Part shown: piece after piece, positions 1 to 49,245 of the stretch | Layout of the letters: every line of letters starts with the position of its first letter | How positions within the stretch are numbered: position 1 is the stretch's first letter | Assembly: GCF_035917575.1 (NCBI RefSeq) | Contig: NZ_CP109090.1 | Span: forward strand, 4,030,001-4,094,000 | Source of the DNA: Streptomyces sp. NBC_01788 | GTDB lineage: Bacteria > Actinomycetota > Actinomycetes > Streptomycetales > Streptomycetaceae | Length of the DNA stretch: 64,000 bases | Direction: 5' to 3' | Program-made: the position numbers and the translations under genes | Notes under the pieces: generated by a model | The model's input: the letters and a program-made list of their open reading frames with translations, nothing else | Told to the model about the DNA's origin: nothing | The model's database searches: none

Positions 1-88
1 CCCTGTCCGAGTGCACCGAGAGGCTTGCGGTCGCGAGGTTTGGCCGCAGCGCGACCACGGTCGATGATGCCGTGCAGCAGTGAGCGAC

Positions 89-4078: not shown

Positions 4079-6064
4079 GTGGCTGACGTACCTGCCGATC
4101 TTGCCGCAGTGTGGCCACGGGTTCTTGAGCAGCTTCTCGGCGAGGGACGCGTACACGGCGTCGAGGCGAAGGACGAACACTGGATCCGGCGCTGCCAGCC
4201 GCTCGCGCTGGTCGCGGACACCGCGCTGCTCGCGGTGCCGAACGAATTCGCCAAGGGCGTACTCGAAGGGCGCCTCGCCCCGGCCGTCAGCGAGTCGCTG
4301 AGCCGCGAGTGCGGCCGCCCGATCCGCATCGCGATCACCGTCGACAGCTCTGTGGGCGAGTCCCAGGCCCCCGCGCCCGCCCCGGCGCCGCGCTACGAGG
4401 ACCAGGAGCTGCCCACGGGCCAGGGCGGCGGCTACGAGGGCTACGGCAGGCGCCGGGCGGACGCCCACCGTCCCGCCCGCCCCGACCAGTACCCGGGTGG
4501 CCAGGGCGACCAGATGCCGCCCCATCGCACGGGCGCCCAGCCGGCGGACGGCGGCGACCACCTCCCGACCGCCCGTCCCGCCTACCCCTCGGAGTACGCC
4601 GAGTACCAGCGTCCCGAGCCCGGCGCCTGGCCGCGCCACCACCAGGACGACTACGGGTGGCAGCAGCAGCGGCTCGGCTTCCCGGAGCGGGACCCCTACG
4701 CCTCGCCGTCCCAGGACGCCTACGGCCCGCAGGAGACCGGGTACGGCCACCAGGACGCGTACGGGCCGGCCAAGGACTCCTACGCGCAGGACTACCGCTC
4801 CCCGTCGATGGAGCGCCCGCCGTACGACCAGCCGCGCTCCGACTACGACCCGTCCCGCGGCGATTACGATGCCCGTGACGCCCGTGACTACGACCAGCGC
4901 GACACCGGCCACCGCGAGCAGCCGGAGCCGGCCGGCCCCGGTCATGCGCGCCGCGGCGGCCCCCACGGCCCCCACGGCGCCCCCGGCCCGCTGGCCGCGC
5001 AGCCCGCACCGGCGGCCGGACCCGTCGAGCCGACCGCGCGCCTGAACCCCAAGTACCTCTTCGACACGTTCGTCATCGGCGCGTCCAACCGCTTCGCGCA
5101 CGCGGCCGCGGTCGCCGTCGCCGAGGCACCCGCCAAGGCGTACAACCCACTGTTCATCTACGGGGAGTCCGGGCTCGGCAAGACGCACCTGCTGCACGCG
5201 ATCGGCCACTACGCGCGCAGCCTGTACCCGGGCACGCGCGTGCGCTACGTGAGCTCCGAGGAGTTCACCAACGAGTTCATCAACTCCATCCGCGACGGCA
5301 AGGGCGACAGCTTCCGCAAGCGGTACCGCGAGATGGACATCCTGCTCGTCGACGACATCCAGTTCCTCGCGGACAAGGAGTCGACGCAGGAGGAGTTCTT
5401 CCACACCTTCAACACCCTCCACAACGCCAACAAGCAGATCGTGCTCTCCAGCGACCGGCCGCCCAAGCAGCTCGTGACGCTGGAGGACCGGCTGCGCAAC
5501 CGGTTCGAGTGGGGGCTGATCACCGACGTCCAGCCGCCCGAGCTGGAGACGCGTATCGCGATCCTGCGCAAGAAGGCGGTGCAGGAGCAGCTGAACGCCC
5601 CGCCCGAGGTGCTGGAGTTCATCGCCTCGCGGATCTCGCGCAACATCCGCGAGCTGGAGGGCGCGCTGATCCGGGTGACGGCGTTCGCCTCGCTCAACCG
5701 GCAGCCGGTGGACCTGGGCCTGACGGAAATCGTCCTGAAGGACCTCATCCCCGGCGGCGAGGACTCGACCCCCGAGATCACCGCGCCGGCCATCATGGCG
5801 TCGACCGCGGACTACTTCGGCCTCACGGTCGAGGACCTTTGCGGCACCTCGCGCGGCCGCCAGCTGGTCACGGCCCGCCAGATCGCCATGTACCTGTGCC
5901 GCGAGCTGACCGACCTGTCGCTGCCGAAGATCGGCGCGCAGTTCGGCGGCCGCGACCACACCACCGTGATGCACGCGGACCGCAAGATCCGCGCGCTGAT
6001 GGCCGAGCGGCGCTCCATCTACAACCAGGTCACGGAGCTGACCAACCGCATCAAGAACGGCTGA
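4079..6064 (+). CDS. dnaA: chromosomal replication initiator protein DnaA
   Basis: This 661-residue protein is DnaA, the AAA+ ATPase that binds DnaA boxes and opens oriC. Domain I spans about residues 1-100. Domain II (about 105-325) is unusually long and rich in Pro, Gly, Tyr and Asp, as in Streptomyces, where DnaA is much larger than the E. coli protein of about 470 residues. The AAA+ domain carries Walker [12 protein letters not shown] (about 361-371) and Walker [10 protein letters not shown] (about 421-429). Domain IV carries the DNA-binding signature [15 protein letters not shown] (about 622-636). The GTG start has a GAGAGAG site and matches the domain I boundary. oriC follows directly. 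Confidence 0.98.
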
Positions 6065-6081
6065 GAACACCCACAGCGGCG

Positions 6082-6122
6082 CTCAGGGCGCCTCCGGGAG
6101 CGGATCCCGGAGGCGCCCTGAG
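6082..6122 (+). terminator. dnaA transcription terminator
   Basis: A perfect 18-bp stem runs from 6082-6099 to 6105-6122 (CTCAGGGCGCCTCCGGGA and its complement) with a 5-nt loop, 17 bp after the dnaA stop. It has no long T-tract, which is common in Streptomyces. It would shield oriC from readthrough. Confidence 0.8.
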
Positions 6123-6735
6123 TCGTTGTGGCGTCCAGCCGTCCGGCGCTGAGCCGTTGCACCGCCCGTCCCTGAGCCGTCGCGGCGTACTGCCCCGAGC
6201 CGTCGGGCGTCCACCGCTGTTCGAATCCGCGGCGGGTTACGGCCGTCCTCCACAGATTCGCCGACTTTTTTCCGTCCACATCCTGGGGACCGGGAAGTTG
6301 TCCAGATCGCTTCCACAGGCTGTGCGATCGGCACATCATCCCTCCAGCTCAGAGGCCTGTGGAATGGTGGACGAACGATCTCCACAGACTGTGGATGAAG
6401 CGGATGTCCACAGGTGGCGGCCAGAGTTGTCCACCGGCAACCCACAGGCTGGGGGCCGTTGTCCCCAAGGATCGGCTGCTTCTCCACACCCCTGTCCACT
6501 GTTCGGCAACGCGACGCCCCTGGTCACCGCGTCGAGTGAAAGCCGTCACACCGAGCCACACGGTTGGCATGTGGGAAACCTGGGTAAAGCTGGGGACGCA
6601 GCTGGGGAGAACTGCCCTCAACCTGTGGGCGGGGTGTGCAGAACTTCCCGTTCTCCACAGAGACGGTGAGTTGTCCACCGGTCCCACCCACAGGGCCCGT
6701 GGACAAAATTCCCGCGCTGAGCTGGGCAAACGTGG

Positions 6736-6772
6736 TTATCCACGGTATCCACAGGCCCTACTACTACTGCTG
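6736..6772 (+). other. candidate origin unwinding element (DnaA boxes plus DnaA-trios)
   Basis: Two abutting boxes, TTATCCACG (6736-6744) and GTATCCACA (6745-6753), are followed by a GGCC spacer (6754-6757). Five 3-nt repeats follow: CTA, CTA, CTA, CTG, CTG (6758-6772). This is the order of the basal unwinding system described in Bacillus subtilis: boxes, GC-rich spacer, DnaA-trios. The match is seen in the sequence; its function here is inferred. Confidence 0.6.
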
Positions 6773-6978
6773 ACCAGAGAGAGAGCGGAATCCGTTTCGA
6801 AGCGGGGCCTGTGCACAACTCGAGCTCTCGAGCCCGACCGCGCCTCGCAGCGACTTGACCCCGACGGGCGCCTACTGTCAGTGCTGTGCGTCAGACTGGT
6901 CCCCGGTGTCCTTCCCGTCCCAGTGGGCGGTGACACCGAGTCGGAGGACTCAGTAGCAACAGCAGGAGGCGGCTTACG

Positions 6979-24478: not shown

Positions 24479-24644
24479 GTGAAGGGCTCGTCCCGACATC
24501 TCCGCGAGGGAACCAAACGCCCCGCTTGTCCGTAAGGATGGGCGGGGCGGTGCGTTGCCCACGAGCAGCCGCAGCCGTGTTTCGCGGCGGGCCGGCGGGA
24601 CCAGTAGGACGAGCAGGACAGCAGGACGAATCGAGGGGAACCCC

Positions 24645-25568
24645 ATGGACCAGGCACCAGGCAGCCCGACGGGCCCGGCGGGCCAGGACCCGGCGGGCCA
24701 GGGCCCGCCGGACGCCCACAGCCTGCCGGCCTGCTACCGCCATCCGGGTCGCGAGACCGGCATTCGCTGCGTCCGCTGCGACCGGGCGATCTGTCCCGAG
24801 TGCATGGTCGACGCCTCTGTGGGCTTCCAGTGCCCGGACTGCGTCCGCGGCGGCTCCGGCACCGGCCACCCGCCCGCCGCGTCGCGGCCCCGCACGCTGG
24901 CCGGCGGCACCATGACCGCCGACCCCCGCCTGCTCACCAAGATCCTCATCGGGATCAATGTCGCGGTGTTCATCGCGGTCAGCGTCGACTCCTCGCTCGT
25001 GGGCAACCTGTTCCTGATCGGCGCCTGGCCGCCGGCGCCCTTCACCCCCACCTCGGGTGTCGCGGCCGGCGAGTGGTACCGCCTGGTGACCTCGATGTTC
25101 ACGCACCAGGAGATCTGGCACATCGGCTTCAACATGCTGAGCCTGTGGTGGCTGGGCGGCCCCCTGGAGGCGGCCCTGGGCCGGCTGCGCTACCTGGCGC
25201 TGTACTTCGTCTCCGGGCTCGCGGGCGGAGCGCTGACCTACCTGCTCGCCTCGCCGAGCCAGGCCTCGCTCGGCGCCTCGGGGGCCATTTTCGGCCTGTT
25301 CGGCGCCACCGCGGTGCTGATGCGTCGGCTCAACTACGACATGCGGCCGATCATCGCCCTGCTGGTGATCAACCTGATCTTCACCTTCAGCTGGAGCGGC
25401 ATCGCCTGGCAGGCGCACATCGGCGGCCTGGTCGCCGGTGTCGTGGTGGGGTACGCGATGGTGCACGCCCCGCGCGAGCGGCGTGACCTGGTGCAGTACG
25501 GCACGTGCGCGCTGGTGCTGGCGGTCGTCGTCGTGTTGACGGTGCTCAGAACGGTTCAGCTCACCTGA
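24645..25568 (+). CDS. rhomboid family intramembrane serine protease with N-terminal zinc-binding domain
   Basis: This 307-residue protein has an N-terminal B-box-like zinc finger (about residues 25-65), with C and H ligands in CYRHPGRETGIRCVRCDRAI and CPECMVDASVGFQCPDC. The rhomboid domain follows (about 95-290) with six or seven membrane helices. Catalytic elements are the serine in SLGASGAIFGLFGA and the histidine in WQAHIGGLVAGVVVGY. The motif HIGFNMLSLWWLG is also typical. The start ATG 24645 has GAGGGGAA. Rhomboids cleave membrane-spanning substrates; the substrate is unknown. Confidence 0.93.
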   Translation: MDQAPGSPTGPAGQDPAGQGPPDAHSLPACYRHPGRETGIRCVRCDRAICPECMVDASVGFQCPDCVRGGSGTGHPPAASRPRTLAGGTMTADPRLLTKILIGINVAVFIAVSVDSSLVGNLFLIGAWPPAPFTPTSGVAAGEWYRLVTSMFTHQEIWHIGFNMLSLWWLGGPLEAALGRLRYLALYFVSGLAGGALTYLLASPSQASLGASGAIFGLFGATAVLMRRLNYDMRPIIALLVINLIFTFSWSGIAWQAHIGGLVAGVVVGYAMVHAPRERRDLVQYGTCALVLAVVVVLTVLRTVQLT

Positions 25569-25577
25569 GAGCGTCCG

Positions 25578-25789
25578 TTGTCCACAACCGGTGTCGGATC
25601 TTGTGCATAGCGTGCGGGAACGGGTGCGCCCCCTGCCGATGTCCTGTGTTGTCGCAGGTCAGGCAGGGGGCGTGCACGCTCTGGAGGAGCGGTGTGACAG
25701 TCGTACCGGTGTCAACGGCAGGCGGGTTATCCACAGATCATCAGCGTTTTCCCCAGGCAGCATGTGGAAATTCACCAGCCTGTGGATAA
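25578..25789. promoter_or_regulatory. cluster of consensus DnaA boxes outside oriC
   Basis: Four boxes lie in the 268-bp gap between the rhomboid gene and crgA. They are TTGTCCACA at 25578-25586 (plus), TTATCCACA at 25727-25735 (plus), ATTTCCACA complement at 25763-25771 (minus) and TTATCCACA complement at 25781-25789 (minus). Three are perfect consensus boxes, stronger on paper than any box in oriC. High-affinity DnaA-box clusters near oriC that titrate DnaA are described in S. coelicolor; I cannot say which one, if any, this corresponds to. Confidence 0.75.
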
Positions 25790-25836
25790 CTCAGCGGATA
25801 GCCGTGGGCAAAGCTGCGTTCACCGGAAGGACGACG

Positions 25837-26091
25837 TCACTTCCACTGCGTGGAGACGGCGAACCCGGCGGCGATGAAGCCGAAGCCCACGACGATGTTC
25901 ACGTTGTCGAGGGCCTTGATGGGCAGTGAGCCGTCGGTCACGTAGAAGACGACGATCCAGGCCAGCCCGATGAGGAACAGCGCCAGCATGACGGGCGCGA
26001 CCCAGCCGCGGCCCTCCAGCTTGATACTCGCCGCCTGCTTGGCGGGCGGCGGCGTGTAGTCGGCCTTCTTGCGGATACGTGACTTCGGCAC
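25837..26091 (-). CDS. crgA: cell division protein CrgA
   Basis: This 84-residue protein is CrgA, the small actinobacterial division protein that interacts with FtsZ-ring and peptidoglycan factors and, in Streptomyces, coordinates septation in aerial hyphae. It begins [20 protein letters not shown], has two membrane helices ([20 protein letters not shown] and [20 protein letters not shown]), and ends in WK, as in the family. GTG start. It is divergent from the DUF881 gene and lies next to the DnaA-box cluster. Confidence 0.95.
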
Positions 26092-26231
26092 GAGGGTCTC
26101 TCCTGTCGATGCGCTGGTGGCCGCGCAGGGAACTGGGCTGGCTCCGGAGCAGCGTACAAGGGCACTCTGAGCACTCCCCCGGACGTCCGTTAGCGTAGTG
26201 CTTCCGCGGCGCCGAAGGAGATAAGGGTACG

Positions 26232-27008
26232 TTGACCAATTCCGCCGACTTCTCGGGGACGGGTGCCGGCCCGGCCCGCACGCGCCGCCCGAGGCCCGTG
26301 CGGATCCTTACCGTGGCCGTCTTCGCCCTCGCCGGGCTGATCTTCTTCACCAGTTTCAACACGGCCAAGGGCACCAACATCCGCACGGACGCGTCCCTGC
26401 TGAAGCTGTCCGACCTCGTCCAGGAGCGCAGCCGGAAGAACAAGGAGCTCGACGAGTCCAACGCCGCCCTGCGCGACGACATCGAGTCCCTCGCCGCGCG
26501 CGACGACGGCGGCAAGCCCCAGGACGGCAGGCTGACCGGCCTGGAGAAGAGCGCGGGCACGCAGAAGCTCACGGGCAGGGCGATCACGGTCACGCTCAAC
26601 GACGCCCCGCCCGACGCCACCGCGAAGCTGCCCGGCTACCCCGAGCCGCAGCCCGACTACCTGGTGATCCACCAGCAGGACCTCCAGGCCGTGGTCAACG
26701 CGCTGTGGAACGGCGGTGCCCAGGGCATCAAGGTGATGGACCAGCGGCTGATCTCCACCAGCGCGGTGCGCTGCGTGGGCAACACGCTGATCCTCCAGGG
26801 CCGCGTCTACTCGCCGCCGTACAGGATCACGGCGGTCGGCGACCCGGCGAAGCTCCAGAAGGCGCTCGCGGACTCCCCGGCGATCCAGAACTACATGGTG
26901 TACGTCAACGTCTACGGCCTGGGCTGGAAGGTCACCGACGACGGAACCGCCACCTTGCCCGGCTACTCGGGCACGGTGGACCTGCACTACGCGAAGCCCG
27001 TGCAGTAG
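26232..27008 (+). CDS. DUF881 domain protein, membrane-anchored
   Basis: This 258-residue protein has a short cytoplasmic start, one membrane helix [20 protein letters not shown] (about residues 23-42), a coiled-coil stretch ([21 protein letters not shown]) and a DUF881 domain at about 90-255. The domain includes [26 protein letters not shown] and [20 protein letters not shown]. The family sits beside crgA and division genes in actinobacteria. The start is a rare TTG, with AAGGAG 11 bp upstream. Function is unknown; a role in division is suggested only by context. Confidence 0.88.
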
Positions 27009-47970: not shown

Positions 47971-48002
47971 CAGGCTGTGGAGAACCGATTGTCCACAGCC
48001 TG
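47971..48002. promoter_or_regulatory. 11-bp inverted repeat containing two DnaA boxes
   Basis: CAGGCTGTGGA (47971-47981) and TCCACAGCCTG (47992-48002) are perfect complements, 10 bp apart. One box is the perfect TTGTCCACA at 47989-47997, and the other is TGTGGAGAA at 47976-47984. It lies between the divergent Lrp regulator and E1-alpha genes. Confidence 0.6.
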
Positions 48003-48105: not shown

Positions 48106-49245
48106 ATGACGGTCATGGAGCAGCGGGGCGCGTACCGGCCTTCGCCGCCGCCCGCCTGGCAGCCCCGTACCGACCCCGCGCCGTTGCTGCCCGACGCGGA
48201 GCCCTACCGCGTCCTGGGGACGGAGGCGGCCGCGGAGGCCGATCCGGAGCTGCTGCGGCGTCTGTACGCGCAGCTGGTCCTGGGCCGCCGTTACAACACG
48301 CAGGCCACCGCCCTGACCAAGCAGGGCCGCCTGGCGGTCTATCCCTCCAGCACCGGTCAGGAGGCCTGCGAGGTCGCCGCCGCGCTCGCCCTGGAGGAGC
48401 GCGACTGGCTCTTCCCGAGCTACCGCGACACGCTGGCCGTCGTGGCCCGTGGTGTGGACCCCGTCGAGGCCCTGACGCTGCTGCGCGGCGACTGGCACAC
48501 CGGCTACGACCCCTACGAGCACCGTGTGGCCCCGCTGTCCACGCCGCTCGCCACCCAGCTCCCGCACGCCGTCGGCCTCGCGCACGCCGCCCGCCTCAAG
48601 GGCCACGACGTGGTCGCGCTTGCGATGATCGGCGACGGCGGCACCAGCGAGGGCGACTTCCACGAGGCGCTGAACTTCGCCGCCGTCTGGCAGGCCCCCG
48701 TCGTCTTCCTCGTGCAGAACAACGGCTTCGCGATCTCCGTCCCGCTCGCCAAGCAGACCGCGGCACCGTCCCTGGCCCACAAGGCCGTCGGGTACGGCAT
48801 GCCGGGCCGCCTGGTCGACGGCAACGACGCCGCAGCCGTGCACGAGGTGCTCGCCGACGCCGTGCGGAACGCGCGCGCGGGAGGCGGCCCCACCCTGATC
48901 GAGGCGGTGACCTACCGCATCGACGCCCACACCAACGCCGACGACGCCACCCGCTACCGCGGCGACGCCGAGGTCGAGGCCTGGCGCGAGCACGACCCGG
49001 TCCAGCTCCTTGAGCGGGAGCTGACCGGGCGCGGCCTGCTCGACGAGGACGGCGTCAGCGCCGCCCGCGAGGACGCCGAGGCGATGGCAGCGCGGCTGCG
49101 CGAGCGCATGAACCAGGACGCGCCGCTCGACCCCATGGACCTGTTCGCCCACGTGTACGCGGAGCCGACCCCGCAGCTGCGCGAGCAGCGCGACCAGCTG
49201 GTCGCCGAGCTCCGGGCCGAGTCGGAGGAAGGTACGGCCCGATGA
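48106..49245 (+). CDS. bkdA1: branched-chain 2-oxoacid dehydrogenase E1 component, alpha subunit
   Basis: This 379-residue protein is the thiamine-diphosphate E1-alpha subunit that decarboxylates a 2-oxoacid. Motifs include YPSSTGQEACEVAAALALEE, WLFPSYRDTLAVVARG and LPHAVGLAHAARLKG. The ThDP-binding motif GDGGTSEGDFHEALNFAAVW ends in the ThDP asparagine region NNGFAISVP. It is the first gene of the E1-alpha, E1-beta, E2 operon with a GAGGAGG site, and overlaps E1-beta by 4 bp. Divergent from an Lrp regulator. Branched-chain rather than pyruvate substrate is inferred from the Streptomyces bkd locus. Confidence 0.88.
   Translation: MTVMEQRGAYRPSPPPAWQPRTDPAPLLPDAEPYRVLGTEAAAEADPELLRRLYAQLVLGRRYNTQATALTKQGRLAVYPSSTGQEACEVAAALALEERDWLFPSYRDTLAVVARGVDPVEALTLLRGDWHTGYDPYEHRVAPLSTPLATQLPHAVGLAHAARLKGHDVVALAMIGDGGTSEGDFHEALNFAAVWQAPVVFLVQNNGFAISVPLAKQTAAPSLAHKAVGYGMPGRLVDGNDAAAVHEVLADAVRNARAGGGPTLIEAVTYRIDAHTNADDATRYRGDAEVEAWREHDPVQLLERELTGRGLLDEDGVSAAREDAEAMAARLRERMNQDAPLDPMDLFAHVYAEPTPQLREQRDQLVAELRAESEEGTAR

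Follow-up and report, generated by a model that had tools for sequence, protein, structure and literature searches.

What accounts for a dense array of DnaA boxes in a short gap between a rhomboid-family gene and crgA, close to the chromosomal origin of Streptomyces sp. NBC_01788? The gap lies in a 64,000-nucleotide stretch of the chromosome (hereafter, the window), and it was originally predicted to hold three perfect boxes and one near match, to titrate DnaA, and possibly to connect DnaA with crgA through a promoter lying beside it. The three perfect boxes are indeed present as exact matches to TTRTCCACA (Table 1), and the near match is box-like, as proposed, but carries two mismatches. The promoter claim is wrong. 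Because the gap is enclosed by the 3′ ends of both crgA and the rhomboid gene, the crgA promoter is not adjacent to it; the gap lies at the 3′ end of crgA rather than upstream of its start codon. A link between DnaA and the crgA promoter is not supported either by four loci of family f27, which hold the element beside ppiA and a rhomboid gene, with crgA elsewhere. A search of positions 25300–26240 against Rfam yielded only four weak matches, all below the gathering scores.

Table 1. Features of the rhomboid–crgA gap, its flanking genes, and the oriC interval, in positions of the window.
Feature	Position	Strand	Remarks
oriC interval	6065–6978		About 19 kb from the gap; flanked by dnaA (4079–6064) and dnaN (from 6979)
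Rhomboid-family gene (PF01694)	24555–25568	+	Stop at 25568; 3′ end meets the element
Intergenic gap	25569–25836		268 bp from stop to stop, from ORFs; rhomboid gene and crgA convergent
Exact DnaA box TTGTCCACA (box 3)	25578–25586	+	Conserved block in an 81-row alignment
Box-like TTGTGCATA	25601–25609	+	23 bp from box 3; two mismatches; TTGTGCACA in most relatives
Hairpin between boxes	25628–25671		10-bp arms, 25628–25637 and 25662–25671; without a T run
Conserved block TCGTACCGGTGTCA	25701–25714		Resembles the class palindrome TNACACNNGTGTNA with two mismatches
Exact DnaA box TTATCCACA (box 2)	25727–25735	+	Inside the strongly conserved GGTTATCCACAGATC
Box-like TTTTCCCCA	25747–25755	+	Two mismatches; 20 bp from box 2; kept in the family
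Box-like ATTTCCACA	25763–25771	-	Two mismatches; near match of the original prediction
Exact DnaA box TTATCCACA (box 1)	25781–25789	-	Partner of box 2 in inverted orientation; starts 54 bp apart
Weak box-like CTATCCGCT	25793–25801	-	Three mismatches; 12 bp past box 1
crgA (PF06781)	25837–26091	-	Start codon 26089–26091, stop 25837–25839; 3′ end meets the element

The hairpin between the boxes is probably a two-way transcription terminator, and any kinship of the block TCGTACCGGTGTCA with the palindrome of the wider class is only putative. Exact boxes number four in the window, against a mean of 0.18 in dinucleotide shuffles, and three of the four lie in the gap. Genome-wide (8.27 Mb, a single contig) there are 66, and when 66 boxes were placed uniformly at random, three fell within 212 bp in none of 5000 runs. 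Thirteen of the 66 are found no farther than 100 kb from oriC, compared with an expectation of 1.6. The oriC interval of the window has 12 sites that depart from TTRTCCACA by no more than one mismatch but no exact one, which bears out the original prediction for this genome; among the intervals of 20 other Streptomyces, 11 have no exact box, 6 have one, and 3 have two. The description of the boxes in the gap as stronger than those of oriC holds for the match to consensus only.

Other groups of boxes were also observed in this genome. A second three-box cluster lies between pheA and serS (L226 1103–1425; genome 3961102–3961424), on the opposite side of oriC at a distance of 75 kb. Three exact TTGTCCACA on the same strand fall inside 58 bp at 0.7 Mb from oriC (L230 1258–1315; genome 3331757–3331814). 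At 47976–47997 of the window, TTCTCCACA (minus strand) and TTGTCCACA (plus strand) stand back to back, 13 bp apart, upstream of an ORF that begins at 48106.

To compare the gap among relatives, Streptomyces loci were found via CrgA, taking the best 80 of 497 relatives. The gap is convergent in all 80 of these first-fetched loci and contains an inverted TTATCCACA pair in each. A third box, in most cases exact, usually stands 149 bp from whichever member of the pair is nearer. An enlarged set comprises 183 Streptomyces gaps (174 distinct, as some genomes are counted twice) and leaves out locus L204 because the rhomboid gene was not found there. Every one of the 183 gaps has at least two exact boxes and 172 have at least three, the counts being two in 11, three in 149, and four in 23. 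The strict inverted TTATCCACA pair, 26–57 bp apart, is present in 180 of the 183, and the other three have a mismatched box at its position. An inverted pair is also kept in four Streptomyces with short gaps of 115–145 bp (L132, L144, L146, and L147). In the Streptomyces alignment, nothing is more constant than the box blocks; the hairpin, CAGTCGTACCGGCGTCAAC, and GGTTATCCACAGATC are further constant blocks, and conserved blocks are present between the boxes. At one locus (L143), the entire box array is inverted between unchanged flanking genes, as if only the element between them had been turned over. Taken together, the comparison shows selection on the gap.

The arrangement extends through the family. 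The pattern TTATCCACA-N17..47-TGTGGATAA is present in 59 of 61 Streptomycetaceae genomes, covering 16 of 17 genera, whereas a reversed-pattern control gave 0, and 19 of 20 fetched places of the pattern adjoin crgA. A wider draw from the class gave the pattern in 15 of 16 Streptomyces and in 4 of 181 others, the latter at places that are not those of crgA. Among 12 loci of the order outside Streptomycetaceae, an exact box occurs in the gap in 5, and the element was not found in the remaining 7.

A simpler form recurs across the class, for which our set consists of 80 crgA loci outside the order, two of them too short for counts over 160 bp. Of the 78 loci that could be counted, 48 hold an exact box within 160 bp 3′ of crgA, and the number rises to 72 when one mismatch is allowed. 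By comparison, the same length 5′ of crgA gave 1 of 80 and 6 of 80, and other windows of the same loci gave 8 of 1496 and 45 of 1496, respectively. By batch, exact boxes were found in 11 of the first 20 loci and in 38 of the 60 fetched later. Six class loci (L254, L264, L265, L301, L319, and L326) lack even a one-mismatch box 3′ of crgA. At L254, where the crgA-adjacent box is absent, three exact TTATCCACA occur approximately 1.4–1.8 kb downstream (positions 708–1066), a cluster that may have been relocated. Outside the class, a crgA match was obtained in 32 genomes; the 17 loci examined, from other classes of the phylum, include 7 with an exact box and 12 with a box of at most one mismatch.

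The boxes of the class loci have preferred spacings, namely 10 and 23 bp for opposed boxes and 12–13 bp for tandem ones. The core layout is a box, 1 bp, an inverted box, 3–4 bp, and another inverted box, or the mirror image of this, with spacing mostly (+0, -10, -22/23). Since the place is kept in the Streptomyces examined and a simpler form is found in many other actinobacterial families, the site beside crgA is probably an ancient point of control over the start of chromosome replication.

The element stays close to the origin. Among 94 Streptomyces, the distance between crgA and dnaN has a median of 20.0 kb (range 14.2–88.0), and among 38 class loci the median is 15.3 kb (range 7.9–83.4). 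Boxes are retained at 50.7 kb (L310), 54.2 kb (L339), 72.6 kb (L350), 72.8 kb (L321), and 176 kb (L371). Two exact boxes occur at a distance of 70 kb (L373) and one-mismatch boxes only at 66 kb (L372), and no box was found at the 83-kb locus L264. All these distances are small relative to the chromosome, and therefore they do not separate dosage models.

The flanking genes can be lost from the element's side. At four f27 loci (L395–L397 and L399), the element follows ppiA and the rhomboid gene, and crgA was not found there. In one f27 genome (G280), dnaN (252.7 kb) lies between the element (245.1 kb) and crgA (284.8 kb). In L204, the rhomboid gene was not found between ppiA and the element, and three boxes are still present; the hairpin between them differs in sequence. 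The f27 loci and L204 together indicate that neither neighboring gene is required by the element.

In many class loci, the boxes are accompanied by the palindrome TNACACNNGTGTNA, which was first noticed in 20 loci and which we counted at up to one mismatch in flanks of 160 bp (n = 78) or 200 bp. On the crgA side of the boxes, it is present in 36 of 78 3′ flanks versus 2 of 1496 control windows, and 29 of 60 loci fetched for other reasons have it. With the 200-bp flank it was found in 37 of 80 class loci, in 32 of which (a raw count) it lies 0–1 bp from a box-like site; its distance from the crgA stop is scattered (62 ± 41 bp, 37 loci). The strict palindrome is rare, being present in 39 of 197 class genomes. 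A conserved RNA hairpin was considered and rejected as the thing being kept, because the outer letters of the palindrome's arms pair in 18 of 37 loci versus 13.6 expected. An RNA stem was likewise rejected for the inverted box pairs, the two arms of which vary independently, like protein sites and unlike an RNA stem.

From a search with the palindrome, 30 places were fetched, comprising 8 at crgA, 9 at nrdR–nrdJ, 4 at ppiA–rhomboid, 5 of a whiB type, and 4 others. At all nine nrdR–nrdJ places, which were recognized by Pfam matches to class II ribonucleotide reductase and/or NrdR, a one-mismatch box abuts the palindrome, and joint control of ribonucleotide reductase by DnaA is possible in several families. 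The palindrome there has the form TTACACNNGTGTAA, and with its abutting box it stands upstream of nrdR–nrdJ (L377, L378, L379, L380, L382, L383, L388, L390, and L391); at L378, lexA lies on its other side. At the five whiB-type places (L398 and L400–L403, from small f27 genomes), the palindrome stands between a nucleotidyltransferase gene and whiB, without a DnaA box. Pfam supports this type of place in the four of these five loci that were scanned, with whiB matched in L398 and L403 and the nucleotidyltransferase in L398, L400, L402, and L403.

Streptomyces itself contributes less to this part of the picture. The palindrome is matched with at most one mismatch in 94 of 183 Streptomyces gaps versus 1.3 in shuffles, and these matches are one inherited block. 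It is not clearly present in the window, where the best block has two mismatches, it was found in just 2 of 24 other family and order loci examined, and it is missing from most of the other Streptomycetaceae genera examined. The case for a composite of palindrome and DnaA boxes therefore rests on other families.

How, then, might the gap act? The reading we favor, with a probability of roughly 0.55, is that it is an old, selected candidate site for DnaA-binding control near the origin, and that it probably titrates DnaA. Genome comparison establishes that the boxes exist and that their position and order have long been conserved. The original prediction of a DnaA-binding site near oriC is thereby well supported, in that box content, order, and place are kept in Streptomyces and a simpler form occurs class-wide, with the exception of its crgA-promoter link. 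We infer that DnaA binds the boxes in the cell, in a single complex, and is titrated there. Several boxes would hold a complex of multiple DnaA molecules, formed on the inverted TTATCCACA pair, the third box 149 bp away, and the weaker sites between and beyond. The gap would be copied soon after oriC, and its doubling would probably remove free DnaA just after initiation, making a second start less likely. Many other families of the class probably have a second, dimeric protein that reads TNACACNNGTGTNA and binds edge to edge with DnaA, which it could gate.

Titration is plausible by analogy, given that S. coelicolor DnaA-box clusters are described as analogs of datA in three sources (PMC5742627, PMC4585315, and PMC10950094). 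Two other papers state that a single box is bound weakly by S. coelicolor DnaA (PMC4285127) and that domain I of actinobacterial DnaA dimerizes (PMC13270200), and these two properties fit paired and opposed boxes. Spacing within the Streptomyces pair was also considered. It takes values of 26, 32–35, 41–47, and 52–57 bp, with none at 36–40 or 48–51 bp; the modes switch at least 28 times on the tree, and there is a strong periodicity at 11–11.5 bp. Helical phasing was rejected as proof of a loop, because a similar period appears in two controls, the distances from the crgA stop to box 1 and from the rhomboid stop to box 3. A third control, from the crgA start to DUF881, has no period in its distinct values and two modes 11 bp apart. 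A simpler cause of the 11-bp steps is tandem boxes with a 12-bp pitch that come and go.

Conserved boxes are predicted alike by titration, nucleotide exchange, and transcription blocking. The main rival by anatomy is a DARS-like site, at which a box opposed to two tandem boxes would set DnaA molecules head to head and aid release of ADP, recharging DnaA from its ADP to its ATP form. A triad of this kind (+, -10..12, -11..14 further) occurs in 40 of 80 class loci when up to two mismatches per box are allowed and in 17 of 80 at up to one mismatch, compared with none in 50 shuffles. The DARS1 and DARS2 cores of E. coli MG1655, as we measured them, both read (+0, -14, -26), with a tandem pitch of 12, and their three boxes have the order and orientation of the class core, a single box facing a tandem pair. 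These cores are close to the class core and not the same as it, since the opposed spacing is 14 bp rather than the 10 bp that predominates in the class, and the strict Streptomyces pair is far wider (54 bp in the window). Moreover, DARS2 works far from oriC and inhibits timely initiation when moved close, according to published accounts, which also give it IHF and Fis sites for which we identified no counterpart in this element. We judge recharging to be an unlikely role. We give a similarly low rating to a transcription device, in which DnaA on the boxes and the hairpin would together stop read-through from one convergent gene to the other and so tie crgA or rhomboid expression to free DnaA. 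The convergent gap with its strong hairpin between the boxes suits such a device, as does the finding that in 59 of 80 class loci a rhomboid gene and/or ppiA is convergent with crgA, and E. coli DnaA on a box can block RNA polymerase, according to work cited in PMC10950094. Against it, the element persists without the rhomboid gene or without crgA, the array is inverted in L143, and the inverted pair is kept in the four short gaps.

For the families with the palindrome, a quite improbable alternative is that the composite is the site of a cell-cycle regulator working with DnaA, as at nrdR–nrdJ, and that titration is a side effect. The enrichment of the palindrome 3′ of crgA, its abutment on box-like sites, and the nine nrdR–nrdJ loci speak for this account; against it, the palindrome is unclear in the window and in most other Streptomycetaceae loci examined. 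MtrA is one candidate for such a regulator, on thin grounds. Published sources report that MtrA binds oriC in S. venezuelae and give the M. tuberculosis site as GTCACAGCG, but they describe MtrA sites as direct repeats, not palindromes. A possible MtrA site in oriC was set aside, because GTCACACCG, although present in this oriC, recurs in only 2 of the 20 intervals from other Streptomyces and is thus not conserved. Finally, GC-rich intergenic sequence might happen to hold boxes by chance or drift. Nothing but the shortness of a 9-mer speaks for this, and the conservation counts, shuffles, reversed pattern, control windows, and random placement contradict it, such that its probability is negligible.

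A bolder proposal can also be made, which we offer tentatively and consider doubtful. Actinobacteria may possess an ancestral third type of site for controlling DnaA, separate from datA and DARS, in the form of a rigid composite of a box opposed to two tandem boxes and abutting the palindrome of a dimeric regulator, located 10–35 kb from oriC by ppiA–rhomboid–crgA. The same pair of proteins would act at the nrdR–nrdJ promoter, and the Streptomyces form would be an enlargement with wider spacing and a third box. Were this true, a single regulator would couple the supply of DnaA at the origin to nucleotide synthesis, and the composite at nrdR–nrdJ does suggest that origin firing and nucleotide supply have a regulator in common. 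Limits on initiation in actinobacteria are poorly known; a small, conserved, dispensable-looking site makes the question testable, and its fixed layout and probable partner protein make direct tests feasible. The comparison also generalizes a finding from one species to much of the phylum.

A literature search returned nothing on DnaA boxes by crgA. Both the breadth of the conservation and the composite seem to be new, although the search did not extend to the palindrome, the nrdR–nrdJ composite, or most of the subscription literature. In S. coelicolor, Smulczyk-Krawczyszyn et al. (2006, J. Bacteriol. 188:6184) are said to have described strong DnaA-box clusters around oriC named H69, H24, and D78, of which D78 reportedly has the highest affinity and, on deletion, raises replication frequency. 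The gap is probably H69, judging by the cosmid numbering of crgA (SCO3854 = SCH69.24), and the pheA–serS cluster of this genome is presumably D78. Class-wide conservation, the class geometry, and the palindrome are not known to figure in the 2006 account.

Among better-characterized systems, E. coli datA is described as a non-coding group of DnaA boxes, close to oriC, by which untimely initiation is repressed. The gap is likewise a non-coding cluster of consensus DnaA boxes near oriC. However, datA has main boxes on the same strand and an IHF site between its boxes, and no IHF site of this kind was identified here. Bacillus subtilis clusters that repress untimely initiation (Okumura et al. 2012, as cited by others) also lie outside oriC. 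Last, E. coli DnaA is stated to prefer "double DnaA boxes," two boxes 2–3 bp apart (PMC11317965). A comparable tandem pitch of 12–13 bp (3–4 bp apart) recurs in the class and in Streptomyces; unlike the double boxes, the tandem pair beside crgA usually faces a further inverted box and is joined in many families by the palindrome.
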